64,000 nt of DNA from Candidatus Reidiella endopervernicosa (GTDB taxonomy: Bacteria > Pseudomonadota > Gammaproteobacteria > GCF-013343005), in assembly GCF_013343005.1 (NCBI RefSeq), contig NZ_CP054491.1, forward strand, positions 1,346,501-1,410,500, given 5' to 3'. A program made the translations under genes and the position numbers. Below the pieces are notes generated by a model. It saw only the letters and a list, made by a program, of their open reading frames with translations. It made no database searches and was not told the DNA's origin. This document shows, piece by piece, positions 11,302-37,968 of this stretch (the stretch's first letter is position 1; each line of letters begins with the position of its first letter).

Positions 11302-13254
11302 CTACTGCTCGTCGGCTTGCGCGCCGCTCGGTGTCTTCACCCCAGCGGCGGCCTGTACCAGGGGTCGCGGTTCGCCCCGCACAAAGCTGGCCCAGCGCAG
11401 GATGCGGCGGATGTTGTGCTGCTCATCGAGATAGAGGGTGCCGCTCTCACCCTCAACGCGGGTACCGGGGCGGTTCGCCAGTACATTGAGTGCCGGGGCG
11501 AGGTTGTAGGCGTCGATGCCGAGTGCGTAGAGACGTGCCGAGCGTTTCATCTGCTTCGGCCACAGTGTCTGCAGCTGCTGGCGTAGAGGGTTGTGCTGTT
11601 GTGATTTGCCCAGCGTCCACGGCATGTCGCAGAAGAGGATGCCGTCCATGTCACGATCCTTCGCCTTGTCGGGGTGGCCGGTATAGACGTGCGAGGTGGC
11701 GTAGATCGGTATCTTGCCGAGGTAGTGGAACTTGAGCTGAGGGCGGATCAGGCGCGCCTGACGTGGGAAGGCGAGCATGAAGATGATGTCGGCATCCTGA
11801 CGACGACGTGGCTCAAACTTCACCTTGCCGCCGATGATGCGGGTGAGTGCGCGCTTGCGCGACTGGCTGGCATCGGTATCGAGCAGGGCGCGGATCGGTG
11901 CCGAGAAGTCGCTGCCGCTGGAGGTGTAGCGTTGAACCTCTAACATCTCACCGCCGAACTGCTCCCAGCGGTTCTGCAGGGTCTGTAGCAGGCGATCACC
12001 CCAGGCGCCGTTTGGTACCAGGGCGATGGCACTGGAATAGCCGTCCATCAGTGCCTGATCGGCGATCTGTACGATCTCATCCTCGGGTGAGAGGCCAAAC
12101 TGGTAGAGGTTGCGTGGGGTATCGCTTAGCGCATGGTTGAGGGCCAGAACCGGTACCTGCAGTGAGCCGATCGAGGCGATGTCGGTGACCGCCTGTTTGC
12201 GCAGAGGGCCAATCACCAGCTGGGCACCGTCGCGTAGGGCGGCATTGTAGGCCTGTTCGGCACCGCCGATGGTGTCGTAGATGCGTACCTCGCCGTTACG
12301 CCCCTCATCCTTGCCTGCGTAGTGCGCGGCGAGAAAACCGTCTCGAATGGCATGGCCCGCAGCGGCGTGTTTGCCGCTCAGTGGCGTAGTGGGCAGCCGA
12401 GAACCGCGAGGCTGGCGCAGCGGCATGGGTGCTGCTCGGTGGGGTAGCGGGCCAGTTGGCGTGACCTCGCGCGGGCCGGGCGAGGCATGTCGGGTGCTGC
12501 AGCGAGCCGGCGGCGCGGGAGCGCGCCTGCCAGTTGGCGAGTGCCGACTCCATCTGGCTGGCCTGAAAACGGTAGGCGCGACTGATGGCGAGCACTCCTC
12601 CAGCCGATTGAGCACGAGGGGCTTCACTCGGCGGCGCGGAGCGCCTCATCATCGCAGGTATCTTGAGGGCTGAGCCAAACATGCGATCTCGATGGTTGTC
12701 GTTAACACGAGGGTCGAGCAGTAGGTCGAATCCAGGGCACACGTTTGGCGGCACTCTGCTGCCAGCGACTGGAGAGGTAGAGGCCGCCCACGCAGCGCCG
12801 TGCGAGCGTCTGCGCAGTTCCATCGGCGATGGGAATCTTGGGGCTGCACAACGAAGGACTCGCGGGATCCCATTTGAGAGATTGGCGATGCTCGCCCACT
12901 GCAAGGTTACTATCGGCAGCCGTGAGGGAACCGTGACGCTGCTGGTATCGGATAATGCGGAGCGTGGGTCTTGGCATCGTCGCTGTATGTTGCGCGCGGG
13001 AACGATTCGGCAGCGTTGAGTTGGATCTGACGGAGCGGTGTCGGTGAGCGGGCCGAGAGCACCAGCCACTGCTGAGCGCCGTCGAGTGTCTTGCTGCGAT
13101 CCTCAACCTGAACGGGCGTGCGTGACGGTGAGTCGCCATAACCGAGGTATCTACTCGTCGTGCTGCAGCCGATCAGTAGAGCGGTGAGCGTCAGGATTCC
13201 CAGTCGGGTTAGGTGGTGCCGTTTCACTTGCAAGTTATTCACTATCCGTTGCAC
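11302..13254 (-). pseudogene. lpoA: LpoA (LppC/YraM) outer-membrane activator of PBP1A, frameshifted in the middle
   Basis: LpoA is an outer-membrane lipoprotein that stimulates the PBP1A transpeptidase. The N-terminus is read from about 13254 (possibly a GTG at 13227): a signal with lipobox LLIGC, then STTSRYLGYGD and SKTLDGAQQWLVLSARS. The C-terminal domain is intact in another frame from about 12360 to 11302, with GHAIRDGFLAAHY, LVIGPLRKQAVTDIA, PVLALNHALSD, DIIFMLAFPRQARLIRPQLKF and YALGIDAYNLAP, a periplasmic-binding-protein fold. Between about 13050 and 12370 the TPR part is spread over three frames. The total length, about 650 codons, is normal. Divergent from rsmI as in E. coli. The breaks look like several small indels and may be assembly errors, because PBP activation is normally important. 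Confidence 0.85.
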
Positions 13255-13329
13255 GATGGCGCGCGTTGAGGGTTGAGCCGGTGGAGCATGCTGCTCGTCG
13301 GATGCCCAGTATCTTGGGAGGCGTGGAAG

Positions 13330-14181
13330 GTGTCAATTGAGTATGGTCGACTCTATATAGTAGCGACACCGATCGGCAATCTCGGTGATATGACACCGCG
13401 TGCCGTCGAGGTGCTGAAAACGGTCGATCGAATCGCTGCCGAGGATACCCGTCATAGCGGCGGTCTGCTGAAGCATTTTGCGATAACCACGCCGATGTTT
13501 GCCCTGCATGAGCACAATGAGCGTCAGCGCTGTGGTGTGCTGATCGATATGCTGCTGGGGGGTGAGTCGGTGGCGTTGATCTCCGATGCCGGTACCCCGC
13601 TGATCAGTGATCCCGGTTACCATCTGGTGCGTGAGGCGCATCGGCAGGGTATCAGCGTTGTGCCGGTTGCCGGTGTGAGTGCGCTGATTACCGCGCTCTC
13701 GGCCAGTGGGCTGGCGACTGACCGTTTCTGCTTTGAGGGCTTTCTGCCCGCTAAATCGGCCGCGCGCCGCGCCCGTCTTGAGCTGCTCGGCGATGAGTCG
13801 CGCACCATTACCTTCTATGAATCTCCGCATCGAATCCTCGACTCACTCGCCGACATGGTGGCGGTATTGGGCGCAGAGCGGCCTGCGGTGGTGGCGCGTG
13901 AACTGACCAAACGTTTTGAAACCATTAAGCACGCCACGCTCGGCGAGCTGCTGGCCTGGGCTGAGGCCGATAGTGATCAACAGCGTGGTGAGTTTGTGGT
14001 TGCGATTGAGGGTGCAATCAAAAAAGAGTCGCAGGGGCTTGATGACGAGGTGCTGCGAATCGCGCAGCTGCTGCGCGACGAGCTGCCGCTGAAGCAGGCG
14101 GCGGCATTGGCGGCGAAGATCAGTGGTGAAAAGAAAAATGCGATCTACCAGCACCTGCTGCAGGCTGAGCGCGATGGATAG
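13330..14181 (+). CDS. rsmI: 16S rRNA (cytidine-1402-2'-O)-methyltransferase
   Basis: RsmI methylates the 2'-hydroxyl of C1402 in the ribosomal decoding centre using SAM. From the GTG at 13330, with GGGAGG upstream, the product is 283 residues (E. coli 286). Family motifs are RLYIVATPIGNLGDMTPRAVEVL at the start, AAEDTRHSGGLLKHF, ALISDAGTPLISDPG, VPVAGVSALITALSASGL, FEGFLPAK and FYESPHRI, typical of the tetrapyrrole-methylase fold. A longer upstream ATG at 13273 adds 19 residues with no family resemblance. Divergent from lpoA and followed directly by the rnpB promoter. Confidence 0.95.
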   Translation: MSIEYGRLYIVATPIGNLGDMTPRAVEVLKTVDRIAAEDTRHSGGLLKHFAITTPMFALHEHNERQRCGVLIDMLLGGESVALISDAGTPLISDPGYHLVREAHRQGISVVPVAGVSALITALSASGLATDRFCFEGFLPAKSAARRARLELLGDESRTITFYESPHRILDSLADMVAVLGAERPAVVARELTKRFETIKHATLGELLAWAEADSDQQRGEFVVAIEGAIKKESQGLDDEVLRIAQLLRDELPLKQAAALAAKISGEKKNAIYQHLLQAERDG

Positions 14182-14221: not shown

Positions 14222-14580
14222 GCGGGAGTTGGCCGGACAGTCGCGGCCCCTTAGGGGGCGGAGGAAAGTCCGGGCTCCATAGGGCAGGGTGCCAGGTAAC
14301 ACCTGGGCGGCGCGAGTCGACGGAAAGTGCAGCAGAAAAGATACCGCCGATGACTCCTTCGGGAGTACAGGTAAGGTTGAAATGGTGCGGTAAGAGCGCA
14401 CCGCGTCGGTGGCAACACTCGGCGGCAAGGTAAACCCCACCCGGAGCAAGACCAAATAGGGGAGCTGAGGCGTGGCCCACGCTGCTCCCGGGTAGGTCGC
14501 TTCAGGTGCGTGGCGACACGCATCGCAGATGAATGACTGTTCACGACAGAACCCGGCTTACAGGCCGACTCCCAACCCAA
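14222..14580 (+). ncRNA. rnpB: RNase P RNA, bacterial type A
   Basis: The catalytic RNA of RNase P, which trims the 5' ends of pre-tRNAs. The ends pair as helix P1: GGGAGTTGGCC at 14224-14234 with GGCCGACTCCC at 14563-14573. The near-universal core elements are present: GAGGAAAGTCCGGGCTCC (14262-14279), the AGGGCAGGGTGCCAGGTAA segment, AAGGTTGAAATGGTGCGGTAAGAGCGCACC in pieces, GGCAAGGTAAACCCCACC and the 3' ACAGAACCCGGCTTACAGGCC element. The length of about 350 bases is normal for gammaproteobacteria. A 62-codon open frame that overlaps its 3' end is a chance ORF. Confidence 0.96.
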
Positions 14581-14803: not shown

Positions 14804-14843
14804 TTTGTTGCAAAGGCAAAATCTTTGTTGCAAAGGCAAAATC
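14804..14843 (+). repeat. 20-bp tandem duplication in front of mraZ
   Basis: TTTGTTGCAAAGGCAAAATC occurs twice head to tail (14804-14823 and 14824-14843). Each copy contains TTGCAA, the -35 hexamer of the promoter proposed for the dcw cluster. Only the second copy is at the right distance from the -10. Confidence 0.9.
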
Positions 14844-14856
14844 TGACTCCTATAGT
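14828..14856 (+). promoter_or_regulatory. Sigma-70 promoter of the dcw cluster (Pmra)
   Basis: TTGCAA (14828-14833), a 17-base spacer, then TATAGT (14851-14856). The -10 touches the first MraZ box, so MraZ bound there would block polymerase. No other promoter of this quality is seen before mraZ. Confidence 0.65.
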
Positions 14857-14910
14857 GGTACAAAGTGGGTTCCAGTGGAAAATAATGGAAAAATAAGACC
14901 CACAGTGGGG
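14856..14910 (+). promoter_or_regulatory. MraZ operator: phased TGG boxes
   Basis: TGGTA, TGGGT, TGGAA and TGGAA start at 14856, 14866, 14876 and 14886, exactly ten bases apart. A fifth, TGGGG at 14906, keeps the phase with one empty slot at 14896. MraZ is known to bind its own promoter at TGGGN direct repeats separated by five bases, so this arrangement matches the known site and predicts autorepression of the cluster. Confidence 0.8.
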
Positions 14911-14915
14911 GAAGC

Positions 14916-15374
14916 GTGTTTCGCGGAGTTAACAATCTCAATCTCGATGCAAAAGGTCGTATGGCGGTGCCTACCCGCTATCGCGAACGCATTCGTGATC
15001 TCTCCGCAGGTCAAATGGTGGTCACCATCGATACCGATGAGCGCTGCCTGCTGCTCTACCCGTTGCCGGTCTGGGAAGAGATCGAACGCAAACTCGACGC
15101 GCTGCCAAGCTTTAACCGCCAGGCGCGCCGTGTTCAGCGCCTGCTGATCGGGCATGCCACCGAGTGTGAGATGGATGGTCAGGGGCGTCTGCTGCTGCCG
15201 CCGCCGCTGCGTGAGTTTGCCGTAATGGATAAGAAGGTCGTGCTGATCGGTCAGGGCAAGAAGTTCGAGCTCTGGGATGAGCAGAGCTGGAGTGAGCGCC
15301 GCAACAGCTGGCTCGATGAGGATGATGGCGACGATATGGCGTTGCCAGCCGACCTGGAATCTCTCTCGCTTTGA
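14916..15374 (+). CDS. mraZ: MraZ transcriptional repressor
   Basis: MraZ is an AbrB-like DNA-binding protein that represses its own dcw operon. At 152 residues it has normal length. It contains the duplicated motif: [22 protein letters not shown] (2-23) and [21 protein letters not shown] (about 80-100), each with the D-x-K/Q-GR signature of the family. The start is GTG at 14916, preceded by GGGGGAAGC, close to the last TGG box. Its stop overlaps the rsmH start. The operator upstream fits autoregulation. Confidence 0.96.
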
Positions 15375-16312
15375 GTGGCGAGAGCGAGGTGGCGCACCGC
15401 TCGGTGCTATTGGCTGAATCGCTTGAGGCGCTATCGGTCAATGGTGGGGGTATCTATATAGATGGAACCTTCGGTCGCGGTGGTCACGCCGCAGCGATTT
15501 TGGAGGTGTTGGGACCCGATGGTCGCCTGCTGGCGATCGACAAGGATCCCGAAGCGGTAGCGGCGGCAGAGCAGCGCTTTGCCGGTGATAGTCGGTTTTC
15601 GATCGAGCGGGGGTCGTTTGCGATGTTGGGAGAGTTTGTTGAGTCGCGTGGTTGGAGTGGTCGAGTCGACGGCATTCTGCTCGATCTCGGTGTCTCCTCG
15701 CCGCAACTCGATGACGCGCGCCGCGGTTTCAGTTTCCTCAACGATGGTCCGCTCGATATGCGCATGGATCCCGATAGCGGTGAGAGTGCTGCCGATTGGC
15801 TGGCGCGTGCTGGTGATCGGGAGATTGCCGAGGTGCTGAAGCGCTACGGCGAGGAGCGTTTTGCCAAGCGTATCGCCAGAGCGATCGTTGAGGCGCGTGA
15901 TGAGAAACCGCTGACCACGACACGTCAGCTGGCTGAGGTGGTGGCGGCAGCTCACCCGGCCTGGGAAAAACATAAACACCCGGCGACGCGCTCATTTCAG
16001 GCGATCCGGATCTATATCAATCGTGAACTCGAGGATGTTGAGGCAGTGCTGGCGCAGAGCGTCGATGCTCTGGCGCCGGGTGGGCGGCTGGCGGTGATCA
16101 GTTTCCACTCCCTCGAGGATCGGTTGGTGAAACGTTTTATCCGTGATCAGGTGCGCGGTGATCAATTGCCGCACGATCTGCCGGTCATGCATGTCGAGAC
16201 CAACGCAAAGATGAAGTCCTTAGGTAAGGCGATCCGCGCCAGTCGGGATGAAGTGGATGAAAATCCACGCGCCCGCAGTGCGGTGCTGCGCGTGGCGGAG
16301 CGGTTGGCATGA
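15371..16312 (+). CDS. rsmH: 16S rRNA (cytosine-1402-N4)-methyltransferase
   Basis: RsmH (MraW) methylates N4 of C1402, the same nucleotide that RsmI modifies. 313 residues, family-typical. Motifs: [29 protein letters not shown] (SAM loop), [55 protein letters not shown] and [16 protein letters not shown]. The annotated start is TTG at 15371, overlapping the mraZ stop. A GTG at 15389 is an alternative that still precedes the conserved HRSVLL. The gene overlaps ftsL by four bases. Confidence 0.95.
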
Positions 16313-16578: not shown

Positions 16579-18287
16579 GCGAGCAGCAGTCAGTAGAGAT
16601 TTTTAAAGGTCGGCGCTATTTGGCGCTCGGCCTGTTTCTGCTTGGCATGGCGGCGCTGTTGGGGCGTGCCGCGCAACTGGAGCTGTTCGATCGTGAATTC
16701 CTGCAGAATCAGGCCGATGCGCGTCATCTACGCGTGGTCGAGATCCCCGCCCATCGCGGCATGATTACCGATCGTAACGGCGAGCCGCTGGCGATCAGTA
16801 CCCCGGTCGATTCGGTGTGGGCCAATCCGCAGGAGCTGATGTTGGCAAGCGGCGAGCTGCCGCAGCTGGCGCGTCTGCTAGGGCTGAAGACTGAGAAGTT
16901 GCAGCGTCTGCTTGCCAAACGCGAGGGACGTGAGTTTGTCTATCTGAAGCGTCATGTACGCCCTGATCTGGCGCGCAAGGTGATGGCGCTAGATCTGCCA
17001 GGGGTCTCACTGCAGCGTGAGTTTCACCGCTACTACCCAGCCGGTGAGGTCACCGCGCATCTGGTTGGTATGACCAACATCGACGATCTCGGTCAGGAGG
17101 GGCTAGAACTCTCCTACAACGAGTCGCTGCGAGGTGAGCCGGGTGCCAAGCGGGTAGTGCGCGATGGTCGTGGTCGAATTATCGAAGAGGTGGAGCTGAT
17201 CCGTGCTATGCGCCCTGGTCAGCCGCTGCAGCTCAGTATCGATCGTCGTATCCAGTATCTTGCCTACCGTGAGCTGAAGGCGGCGGTAAAACAGCACAAA
17301 GCGACCTCGGGTTCGCTGGTGTTGCTCGACGTGCGCAGTGGCGAGGTGTTGGCGATGGTCAACCAGCCTTCATACAACCCCAATCGTCGCAGCGGTCAGA
17401 AGAGCAGCGCACGGCGTAATCGCGCCGTGACCGATGTCTTTGAGCCCGGCTCGCCGATCAAGCCCTTTACCGTTGCCAGTGCGCTGGAAAATCGGTTGAT
17501 CAAGCCGAGCACCGTGATCAATACATCGCCGGGTTACTACCGAATTGGACGTAAAACCGTCAGTGATTTCCGTGATTACGGCGCGCTGAGTATCGGTGAT
17601 GTATTGGTTAAATCGAGCAATGTTGGTGCCAGCAAAATTGCGCAGAAGCTGGAGAGTGAGCAGCTCTGGTCGATGCTCTCAAGGGTCGGTTTTGGTGAGT
17701 CGACCGCAAGCGGTTTCCCCGGTGAGTCGGCCGGTGTGCTGAGTAACTTCCATCGCTGGCGCAAGGTTGAACACGCCACCCACTCCTACGGTTACGGCCT
17801 CTCCGTTACGCCGCTGCAGCTGGCGCATGCCTACTCAGTGCTTGCTGCCGATGGGGCGCAGTATCCGGTGACCCTGTTGAAAAACAGTGAACCAGCTGAG
17901 GGCGAGCAGGTGATTACCCCGCAGGTAGCGCGTCAGGTTCGTAACATGCTCGAGGGTGTCGTGAGCCGTAAAGGGACTGGATATAAGGCGCATGTGGTCG
18001 GTTACCGTGTCGCGGGCAAGACCGGCACGGTGCATAAAGCGGTTGCAGGTGGTTATGCCGAAGATCGTTACCACTCGGTCTTTACCGGTATGGCACCGGT
18101 TAGCGAGCCGCGGCTGGTGATGGTGGTGATGGTCAATGATCCGCGCAACGGCGACTACTACGGAGGTGCCGTTGCGGCACCGGTCTTCTCCAAGGTGATG
18201 AGTGGGGCGCTCAGGCTGCTGGGGCTGCCGCCCGATGATATGCCTGTGCGCGCCTCCGCCTCTACCGAGAAGAGGGGGCCCGCATGA
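16575..18287 (+). CDS. ftsI: Peptidoglycan transpeptidase FtsI (PBP3)
   Basis: Septum-specific penicillin-binding protein that crosslinks peptidoglycan in the periplasm. 570 residues. Single N-terminal transmembrane helix (about 14-32), pedestal domain, then a transpeptidase domain with SPIK (Ser293, Lys296), SSN (347-349) and KTG (482-484). The SxxK box reads SPIK where E. coli has STVK, which keeps the catalytic Ser and Lys. The RGMITDRNGEPLAIS segment (61-75) is the conserved pedestal motif. Overlaps ftsL and murE by four bases each. Confidence 0.97.
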   Translation: MSEQQSVEIFKGRRYLALGLFLLGMAALLGRAAQLELFDREFLQNQADARHLRVVEIPAHRGMITDRNGEPLAISTPVDSVWANPQELMLASGELPQLARLLGLKTEKLQRLLAKREGREFVYLKRHVRPDLARKVMALDLPGVSLQREFHRYYPAGEVTAHLVGMTNIDDLGQEGLELSYNESLRGEPGAKRVVRDGRGRIIEEVELIRAMRPGQPLQLSIDRRIQYLAYRELKAAVKQHKATSGSLVLLDVRSGEVLAMVNQPSYNPNRRSGQKSSARRNRAVTDVFEPGSPIKPFTVASALENRLIKPSTVINTSPGYYRIGRKTVSDFRDYGALSIGDVLVKSSNVGASKIAQKLESEQLWSMLSRVGFGESTASGFPGESAGVLSNFHRWRKVEHATHSYGYGLSVTPLQLAHAYSVLAADGAQYPVTLLKNSEPAEGEQVITPQVARQVRNMLEGVVSRKGTGYKAHVVGYRVAGKTGTVHKAVAGGYAEDRYHSVFTGMAPVSEPRLVMVVMVNDPRNGDYYGGAVAAPVFSKVMSGALRLLGLPPDDMPVRASASTEKRGPA

Positions 18288-28443: not shown

Positions 28444-29377
28444 CACACAACATACCCCTGCTGACTACGGCAAGGTCGCGGTGCTGATGGGCGGTGACTC
28501 GGCTGAGCGCGAGGTGTCGCTGAATAGCGGTGGTGCGGTGTTGGCGGCACTGCAGTCACAGGGTGTCGATGCACAGGGTGTCGATTTTCGTGCCGGAATG
28601 TTGGCTGAGCTGGCTGAAGCAGGTTTTGATCGTGTCTTCATCGTGCTGCATGGGCGCATGGGAGAGGACGGTGTAGTGCAGGGAGCGCTGGAGCTGCTGG
28701 ATCTTCCCTATACCGGTAGCGGTGTACTCGGTTCGGCATTGGGTATGGATAAGCTGCGTTGCAAAAAACTCTGGACAGGCAGTGATCTGCCAACACCAAA
28801 ATTTTTGCAGCTGCGTAGCGGCTTTGATGCGGCAGCGGTGGTGGCGCAACTCGGTCTGCCGCTGATGGTTAAACCGGGGCGTGAGGGTTCAAGCATCGGT
28901 ATGAGTCGGGTTGAACGCGTTGAGGATCTTGAGGCAGCGTTTAATGCGGCGGTTGTCTTTGATGAGATGGTTTTTGCTGAGCAATGGATCAGCGGCGGCG
29001 AGTATACGGTGGCGCTACTTGGCGGAGAGACGCTGCCGCCGATTCGGCTCGAGACACCGCACGCATTCTACGACTACAAAGCGAAGTATCAGGCCGATGA
29101 TACGAGCTACCACTGTCCCTGTGGTCTGGATAGTGAGGATGAGCAGCAGCTACGCGCTCTGGCACTTGCGGCGTTCAATGCGGCCGGTGCAGAGGGTTGG
29201 GGTCGAGTCGATTTTATGCGTGATGAGCAGGGCGCATTCTGGCTGATTGAGGTCAACACGGTGCCGGGTATGACTGACCACAGTCTGGTACCGATGGCTG
29301 CGACCGAAGCGGGTATCAATTTTGAAAAACTGGTACTGCGAATCCTGGATACGAGCTTTGACGGAGTCGTGCAATGA
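28433..29377 (+). CDS. ddl: D-alanine:D-alanine ligase
   Basis: ATP-grasp enzyme that makes D-Ala-D-Ala for MurF. 314 residues from the ATG at 28433, behind AGGAGGGGG and overlapping the murB end by 11 bases. Motifs: VLMGGDSAEREVSLNSG (N-terminal), VFIVLHGRMGEDGVVQG, LPYTGSGVLGSALGMDK, the ATP-binding MVKPGREGSSIGMSRV, and EVNTVPGMTDHSLVPMAA with the metal ligands. Longer N-terminal extensions in this frame have no support. Confidence 0.96.
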   Translation: MSSSTQHTPADYGKVAVLMGGDSAEREVSLNSGGAVLAALQSQGVDAQGVDFRAGMLAELAEAGFDRVFIVLHGRMGEDGVVQGALELLDLPYTGSGVLGSALGMDKLRCKKLWTGSDLPTPKFLQLRSGFDAAAVVAQLGLPLMVKPGREGSSIGMSRVERVEDLEAAFNAAVVFDEMVFAEQWISGGEYTVALLGGETLPPIRLETPHAFYDYKAKYQADDTSYHCPCGLDSEDEQQLRALALAAFNAAGAEGWGRVDFMRDEQGAFWLIEVNTVPGMTDHSLVPMAATEAGINFEKLVLRILDTSFDGVVQ

Positions 29378-35247: not shown

Positions 35248-37968
35248 ATGGTCAGCAGTCTGTTCAGGAAGATTTTTGGTAGTCGCAATGAGCGCTTGGT
35301 TAAGCGCATGCGCAAGAGTGTTGCGCAAATCACGGCACTGGAGGAGGGGCTGCAAGGGCTCTCCGATGAGGAGTTACAGGCCAAGACCACAGATTTTAAG
35401 CGTCGCATCGAAGACGGAGAGACGCTGGATAACCTGTTGAATGAGGCCTTTGCGGTCGTTCGTGAGGCGAGTCGTCGTGTGATGGGTATGCGCCACTTCG
35501 ATGTGCAGCTGATCGGTGGCATGGTGCTACATCAGGGCAAGATCTCTGAGATGCGCACCGGTGAGGGTAAGACCCTGATGGCGACCCTTCCCGCCTACCT
35601 CAATGCCCTCTCGGGCAAGGGTGTGCATATCGTCACGGTCAATGACTACTTGGCCAAGCGTGATGCGAACTGGATGCGTCTGCTCTATGAGTTCCTCGGA
35701 CTGAGTGTTGGAATCGTAGTGCCGGGTCTGGAGCAGACGGAGAAACGCGACGCCTATGCGGCCGATATCAGTTACGGCACCAATAACGAGTTCGGTTTTG
35801 ACTACCTGCGTGACAACATGGCTTTCAGTCTGGCTGAGAAGGTCCAGCGCGAGGTGAATTTCGCTGTGGTCGATGAAGTCGATTCGATCCTGATTGATGA
35901 GGCGCGTACTCCATTGATTATCTCCGGTCCCGCTGAGGATAGCTCTGAGCTCTACAAGCGGATCAACGAGCTGGTGCCAAAACTGGTGAAGCAGGAGGAA
36001 GAGGATGGCGAGGGTGACTTCAGCATCGATGAGAAAGGTCGTCAGATCCATCTCACCGAGGATGGTCACCAGCGTGTTGAGGAGCTGCTGAGCGAGTCTG
36101 GGCTGCTGGCCGAGGGGCAGAGCCTCTACGATGCCGCTAACCTGACATTGATGCATCATTTCACCGCCGGGCTGCGTGCGCATAATCTCTTCCAGCGTGA
36201 TGTTGACTACATCGTTCAGGATAATCAGGTGGTGATTGTCGATGAATTTACCGGTCGTACCCTGGCGGGGCGTCGTTGGTCCGATGGTCTGCATCAGGCG
36301 GTTGAGGCGAAAGAGGGTGTAGCGATTCAGTACGAGAATCAGACCCTCGCTTCGATCACCTTTCAGAACTACTTCCGTCTCTACAACAAGCTGTCCGGTA
36401 TGACCGGTACCGCCGATACCGAGGCGTTTGAGTTCCAGCAGATCTACGGCCTTGAGACGGTGGTTATTCCGACCAATCAGGCGATGGTTCGTGACGATAT
36501 GGGCGACAAGATCTATATGACTGGCGATGAGAAGTATCAAGCCATTCTGGATGATATTCGTGACTGCCAGCAGCGTGGACAACCAGTGCTGGTTGGTACT
36601 GCCTCAATCGAGGTCTCGGAGCTGATCGCAAAGCTGCTGAGCGATAACAAGGTCAAACACGAGGTGCTAAACGCCAAGCAGCATGCGCGCGAGGCTGAGA
36701 TTGTGGCGCAGGCGGGGCGTCCGGGTTCGGTGACTATTGCTACCAACATGGCGGGCCGTGGTACCGATATCGTGCTCGGCGGCAATCTTGATGTAGCCCT
36801 GGAGGGCCTCGGTGAAGATGCCTCTGAGAGCGACAGGGAGCAGATGCGCGAGGAGTGGAAGGCGACTCACCAGAAGGTGCTGGAGGCGGGTGGTCTGCAT
36901 ATAGTCGGTACTGAGCGTCATGAGTCACGTCGTATCGATAACCAGCTGCGTGGTCGTGCTGGTCGTCAGGGTGATCCGGGCTCGAGTCGTTTCTACCTCT
37001 CTCTCGAAGATAGCCTGCTGCGTATCTTTGCCTCTGGCAAGGTCGGCTCACTGATGGGCAAGCTCGGCATGGAGGATGGTGAGGCGATCGAACATCCGTG
37101 GGTAACCAAGGCAATCGAGAATGCACAGCGTAAAGTAGAGGCGCACAACTTCGATATTCGTAAGCAGCTGCTTGAGTATGATGATGTGGCCAACGATCAG
37201 CGCAAGGTGATCTATGAGCAGCGCAATGAGCTACTCGCCGATGAGGATATCAAGGAGACGATCACCGATATTCTGGATGATGTGACCGAGACGACGATTG
37301 ATACCTACATTCCACCTCAGAGCCTCGAGGAGCAGTGGGATGTGTCGGGACTGGAAGAGGGACTCGATACGCAGTTCGGTCTCAAGCTCGAGGTTTCGAG
37401 TTGGCTTGAAGAGGATGAGACGCTTCACGCAGAGACACTGCGCAAGCGTATCCATGCGGAGATGGAGCGAATCTATGCCGAGAAGGAGGTCCTGGCGACC
37501 CCCAGTGTGATGCGAAATTTTGAGCGTGAGGTGATGCTTAAGGTGCTCGATTCGCACTGGAAGGAGCACCTCGCTGCGATGGACTACCTGCGTCAGGGCA
37601 TTCACCTGCGTGGCTATGCGCAGAAGAATCCCAAGCAGGAGTACAAGCGCGAAGCATTCGAGATGTTTAGCGAGATGCTCGACCGCATCAAGATTGAGGT
37701 CGCGAGTGTTCTGGCGCGCGTTGTGGTTCGCACCGAGGAGGATGTCGAGGCGGTTGAGGAGCAGCGTCGTAGTACTGTGCCAATGACCTATCAGCACGCC
37801 GACGCTTCTGCGTTGGGTGGTGAGGAAGCGCCTGCAGAGCCTGAGGCAGAGCGCGATGGTTCTCCTGCGGCTCCCTTTACCCGTGAGGGGCGAAAGGTCG
37901 GACGTAATGAGCCGTGTCCCTGCGGTTCAGGCAAGAAGTATAAGCAGTGCCACGGTCAGCTTAGTTAA
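35248..37968 (+). CDS. secA: Preprotein translocase ATPase SecA
   Basis: Motor of Sec protein export. 906 residues (E. coli 901). Walker A MRTGEGKT at 102-109, Walker [16 protein letters not shown], the preprotein-crosslinking domain, the helicase motif [19 protein letters not shown], and the arginine-finger motif [27 protein letters not shown]. The C-terminal tail carries the zinc-binding, SecB- and lipid-interacting motif [14 protein letters not shown]. No SecM-like arrest peptide is seen upstream, so the E. coli type of secretion-responsive control is absent. Confidence 0.98.

Follow-up and report, generated by a model that had tools for sequence, protein, structure and literature searches.

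A probable MraZ operator of four boxes overlapping the -10 hexamer of the dcw promoter in Candidatus Reidiella endopervernicosa

Results

Gene neighbourhood of the box array

The window, that is, the whole stretch of 64,000 nucleotides of Candidatus Reidiella endopervernicosa DNA analysed here, contains mraZ on the plus strand (14916..15374; GTG start, 152 amino acids), which matched PF02381 with an E value of 1.4e-35. The next gene of the dcw operon, rsmH (mraW), follows at 15371..16312 on the same strand (PF01795, E 1.2e-113), and ftsL and an ftsI-type transpeptidase gene lie downstream of rsmH in the gene order of the window. The open reading frames at 18284 and 19792 were read from their translations as putative murE and murF. 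The order mraZ, rsmH, ftsL, the ftsI-type gene, and putative murE and murF is that of the usual start of a dcw operon. Upstream of mraZ, we found rsmI (13273-14181) and rnpB, the upstream neighbour, encoding class A RNase P RNA (14225..14576, plus strand; Rfam RF00010, 325.6 bits). The preliminary description had taken the region between 14804 and 14910 as a dcw promoter, and this was borne out by mraZ downstream and by rsmI and rnpB upstream of the array of short repeats described below.

Another gene of the window, on the minus strand at 11302-13254, encodes an LppC/LpoA-type lipoprotein. Its open reading frame at 11302-12627 covers only positions 226-563 of the PF04348 profile, and a lipoprotein-like N-terminus starts at 13254 in another frame with no Pfam match; the gene looks frameshifted, or its N-terminal half looks highly diverged.

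The MraZ protein

PF02381 was matched in two stretches of the window MraZ, corresponding to two SpoVT/AbrB-type repeats, and the nearest named relatives of the protein were labelled mostly Gammaproteobacteria. In the 31 sequences used for alignment and structure prediction, D11, K13, G14, R15, D87, and R91 were invariant; we take the first four to be the DxKGR motif of MraZ. The AlphaFold model (pLDDT 92) gave 16 structure matches at E ≤0.001, all of which were MraZ of M. pneumoniae or M. genitalium. Among them were two cryo-EM entries: 9r4j (best chain, E 1.1e-12), the title of which describes MraZ "in complex with its promoter", and 9sz7 (best chain, E 7.3e-12), titled as MraZ "with 4 box promoter". 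No paper on these 2026 PDB entries was among the matches listed in our literature searches. As judged by family, invariant residues, and predicted fold, the window protein is MraZ.

The box array and the promoter hexamers

The sequence 5' of mraZ was subsequently read on the plus strand. Three GTGG cores (box 1, slot 0, 14855..14858; box 2, slot 1, 14865..14868; box 3, slot 2, 14875..14878) are followed by an ATGG core (box 4, slot 3, 14885..14888), an empty slot (slot 4, AAGA, 14895..14898), and a further in-phase GTGG (slot 5, 14905..14908), and the core of box 1 begins within the -10 hexamer (TATAGTGG). Direct reading confirmed the array as first described, with five TGG cores on one 10-base phase, one slot left empty, and the start inside the -10. 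Four of the cores, three GTGG and one ATGG, are contiguous with a 10-bp period, an MraZ operator being expected to have three or more, and the array lies at the -10 within the dcw promoter, 5' of mraZ (14916). When the 215-base upstream region was shuffled 20,000 times with preservation of dinucleotides, neither five nTGG per six-slot frame nor a contiguous run of four boxes was obtained (0/20,000 each), and four nTGG per six-slot frame were obtained three times.

The -10 hexamer, TATAGT, is located at 14851..14856 and overlaps box 1. A -35-like hexamer, TTGCAA, is found at 14828..14833 (plus strand), 17 bp from the -10; with four of six consensus matches it is a weak -35. Furthermore, a promoter scan yielded a single candidate site, and shuffled sequences averaged 0.6. 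The weak -35 and a scan barely above the shuffles would be in line with chance repeats in AT-rich leader DNA and no operator. This explanation is extremely improbable in view of the box counts in the shuffles, the adjacency to mraZ, and the phase conservation across the class that was obtained with two different anchors, as described in the next section.

Two patterns were searched for in the whole 3.45-Mb genome. Three AGTGG at 10-bp intervals, with at most one mismatch, gave two overlapping matches, both of them this array, and the reversed control gave one; four TGGN7 units gave the array and one other site (G000:C1:2579442-2579474), the control also giving one. No second convincing box array, such as would point to a wider MraZ regulon, was found with these two patterns in the whole genome.

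Conservation of the array in related genomes

For comparison, 80 MraZ loci were taken from public contigs and others from further genomes of the class, of which 31/36 and 320/369 carried MraZ. This gave 136 loci; removal of two identical upstream regions (L089 and L141) left 134 including the window, and L130, whose upstream region is 48 nt long, was omitted from the counts of box runs and of filled slots per frame, so that these cover 132 relatives. Among the whole genomes compared, none besides that of the window belongs to its order, and MraZ identity to the nearest relatives is 74%. A box was defined loosely as nTGG or GTGn and strictly as nTGG only. Slots were counted in the regions that could be anchored by CTATAGTG with at most two mismatches, namely 112 of the 134 (111 relatives and the window); 19 regions with three mismatches to CTATAGTG and three unanchorable ones (L101, L107, and L109) were omitted. 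Since the anchor requires a TG in one or more of slots 1-3, slots 0-3 are favoured in these counts, and slots 4 and 5 are not.

Slots 0-3 were filled in 90-98% of the 111 anchored relatives: slot 0 in 106/111 (20/111 with strict nTGG), slot 1 in 109/111, slot 2 in 104/110, and slot 3 in 99/110. Slot 4 was filled in just 25/109 and is accordingly usually empty in relatives. The slots from -4 to -1 and from 5 to 8 were filled in 0-6%, and nTGG off the phase occurred at a mean of 1.5%, with 10% at the highest single offset. The picture was the same in a thinned set of 69 relatives less than 70% alike (slot 4, 13/67; slot 5, 2/60). At least four boxes (nTGG or GTGn) followed one another without a gap in 106 of 132 relatives, whereas 2,640 shuffles gave no such run. 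Furthermore, an anchor made from boxes only, without the -10, recovered stretches of at least three adjoining boxes in 125 of the 134 regions, counting the window. Phase conservation in relatives, which the preliminary description had named as a check, was upheld with both anchors. As a separate observation, nTGG occurred in 17/111 relatives at offset -21, upstream of the array; this offset is absent from the list for the thinned set.

The position of the -10 relative to the first box was also shared: of the 121 arrays that had a -10-like hexamer, the window among them, 78 have the best one starting four bases before the first box, as in the window, and 22 have it at -16 instead of -4. The TATAGT -10 is conserved. 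Across the class, the best -10-like hexamer was TATAGT, not TATAAT, in 80 of 121 arrays (for example, in L002, L083, and L098), which suggests that the first box, and not the promoter, constrains the fifth base of the -10, an argument made partly circular by the alignment on the first box. Upstream of the -10, TTGACA with at most one mismatch was observed in 88 of the 112 anchored regions (window included in the 112), at 18 bp from the -10 in 64 of these 88 and at 17 bp in 20; the hexamer of the window has two mismatches.

The in-phase GTGG in slot 5

The GTGG at 14905 shares its G-run with GGGGG at 14907..14911 (plus strand), the putative Shine-Dalgarno sequence of mraZ, which lies four bases before the GTG start. 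GGGG within -18 to -4 was observed in 38 of the 112 anchored regions (window included). In relatives, slot 5 was filled in 2/98 (1/98 with strict nTGG), which is about background, so that the GTGG at this position is probably part of the ribosome-binding site and not an operator box. Of the 22 TGG that relatives carry within the final 20 nt before mraZ, one was in phase. Slot 0 lies at a variable distance from the start codon; modulo 10, this distance is 7, 8, 9, or 0 in 73 of 111 relatives, and the value of the window is common to 7 of 111. The 1/22 and the 7/111 are consistent with a coincidence of one in 10 for the phase of slot 5. Most likely, the in-phase GTGG is the Shine-Dalgarno stretch of mraZ, its place on the phase being fortuitous (a probability of about 1 in 10).

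We also considered a true five-box operator of this lineage, in which the GTGG at 14905 would be a fifth MraZ contact across the empty slot, and the bound ring would also cover the ribosome-binding site and extend or tune repression. The site is exactly on phase and has the full CAGTGGG context, and five strict TGG in six slots are, as a whole, beyond chance. Such five-of-six frames are rare, with strict nTGG reaching five or more in 2 of 132 relatives; the window array accordingly ranks among the fullest, and slot 5 might be in use. Arrays of five or six boxes do exist, since contiguous runs of at least five loosely defined boxes were found in 26 of 132 relatives. However, the filling of slot 5 given above does not exceed the off-phase mean in any marked way, TGG near the start is seldom in phase, the modulo-10 distance of the window is uncommon, and the G-run is needed as a Shine-Dalgarno sequence; given a TGG there, the phase would be expected by chance in about 1 of 10 cases. 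We therefore regard a five-box operator as unlikely. The array had been presented as an unusual five-slot operator, and this was not borne out: the conserved operator comprises slots 0-3, and the GTGG at 14905 is neither conserved in the relatives compared nor independent of the ribosome-binding site, whose GGGGG it overlaps. Nor did the supposed novelty of five boxes over the known three or four hold, because with runs of at least five in 26 of 132 relatives, five boxes would not be special.

The 20-bp tandem duplication

Upstream of the array, TTTGTTGCAAAGGCAAAATC is present twice in exact tandem on the plus strand, at 14804..14823 and 14824..14843, confirming the 20-bp duplication that had been described. 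The second copy holds the usable -35, and the first carries TTGCAA at 14808-14813. The claim of a second -35 stands as far as the repeated hexamer is concerned. As a working -35 the upstream hexamer was rejected, because 37 bp separate it from the -10 and no -10 is present at 16-18 bp from it. Cryptic boxes within the duplicated unit were rejected as well: AAAG falls on the phase of the array (slots -2 and -4) without a TG core, and slots -4 to -1 were filled in at most 6/111 relatives.

The duplication is the highest-scoring tandem repeat of the 64-kb window according to TRF (score 82; next, 60), its length equals two helical turns, and its unit holds the inverted pair TTGC-AAAG-GCAA. These features would suit a regulatory role, as a tandem site for another regulator or as a second -35 or UP-like element raising dcw transcription. 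Against such a role, an exact tandem duplication (unit length, 12-59 bp) was present in the window only among the 134 upstream regions (at most 250 nt each, some shorter), leaving the other 133 with no exact counterpart; elsewhere in the genome the 20-bp unit occurs only with three mismatches, in two places; the upstream TTGCAA has no suitably placed -10; and the slots upstream of the -10 show no conserved boxes. A regulatory duplication is hence improbable. Most likely, the duplication arose by a replication-slippage event specific to this lineage, which left the core promoter intact; it may also be an assembly artefact. Other short tandem repeats reported by TRF in the window are located at 37445-37488 and 28557-28585, with units of 21 bp and 15 bp, respectively.

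The two features could also be combined, such that in this lineage a fifth, non-adjacent box doubles as the ribosome-binding site and the 20-bp duplication offsets the tighter repression. If this were true, one element would serve both the operator and translation start; we consider it very unlikely. The in-phase Shine-Dalgarno sequence and the duplication would matter only if they altered regulation.

Discussion

Comparison with known MraZ operators

In Mollicutes, the MraZ site is given as (AAAGTGKN3)3 in PMC5282649. The Mycoplasma operator resembles the array described here in its AAAGTGG-like boxes, three or four in number with a 10-bp period, and in its autoregulatory position before mraZ, and the fold of Mycoplasma MraZ is matched by the model of the window protein. 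The window array differs in the extra in-phase GTGG that overlaps the Shine-Dalgarno sequence; in the window, the first box is embedded in the -10. In E. coli K-12 (L145), three GTGGG are followed by GGGG in the fourth slot with a 10-bp period, so that Pmra is alike in having direct GTGGG repeats at 10 bp before mraZ, whereas, unlike in the window, no TATAGT -10 is overlapped by its first box. E. coli MraZ represses dcw, according to Eraso 2014 as cited in PMC8475190 and PMC7761207. In B. cenocepacia, MraZ is described in PMC7761207 as gel-shifting a fragment with four 7-nt repeats and 3-nt spacers over the dcw start site. This PmraBc site is alike in its four 7-nt repeats, 3-nt spacers, and overlap with the start site; in contrast, that paper places it downstream of the -10, and the array of the window begins within the -10.

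Proposed mode of action

Taken together, the match of the MraZ fold and the sites of B. cenocepacia and E. coli point to an ordinary four-box autoregulatory operator as the best explanation. Very probably, the locus carries such an operator interlocked with the -10, together with a fortuitous in-phase TGGGGG at the ribosome-binding site and a slippage duplication. Since the supposed fifth box lies on the ribosome-binding site, the finding is real but largely ordinary. In the proposed mechanism, MraZ, the product of the first gene of the operon, would form a ring of SpoVT/AbrB-type subunits. The boxes, which lie on one helix face at a 10-bp period with the first embedded in the -10, would be bound by the ring, which would cover the -10 and the start region. 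Bound at a first box inside the -10, MraZ would block RNA polymerase, and the expression of mraZ and the downstream genes would be damped. For this organism, we infer MraZ binding, repression, promoter activity, and the ring form; cooperative binding by the ring, as had been suggested, is plausible by analogy with published work on MraZ.

The locus adds one more well-formed MraZ operator. At the level of the class, the counts amount to a rule of four slots with a 10-bp period, the first of which is interlocked with a TATAGTG -10; slot 4 is optional, and longer arrays occur at some loci only. This rule is of use in the annotation of dcw promoters and agrees with the four-box structure deposited in the PDB. 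Six loosely defined boxes per 10-slot frame were observed in 9 of 132 relatives (L015, L016, L017, L022, L062, L074, L079, L080, and L099), and in L015, L016, L017, and L062 the array begins more than 100 nt before mraZ.
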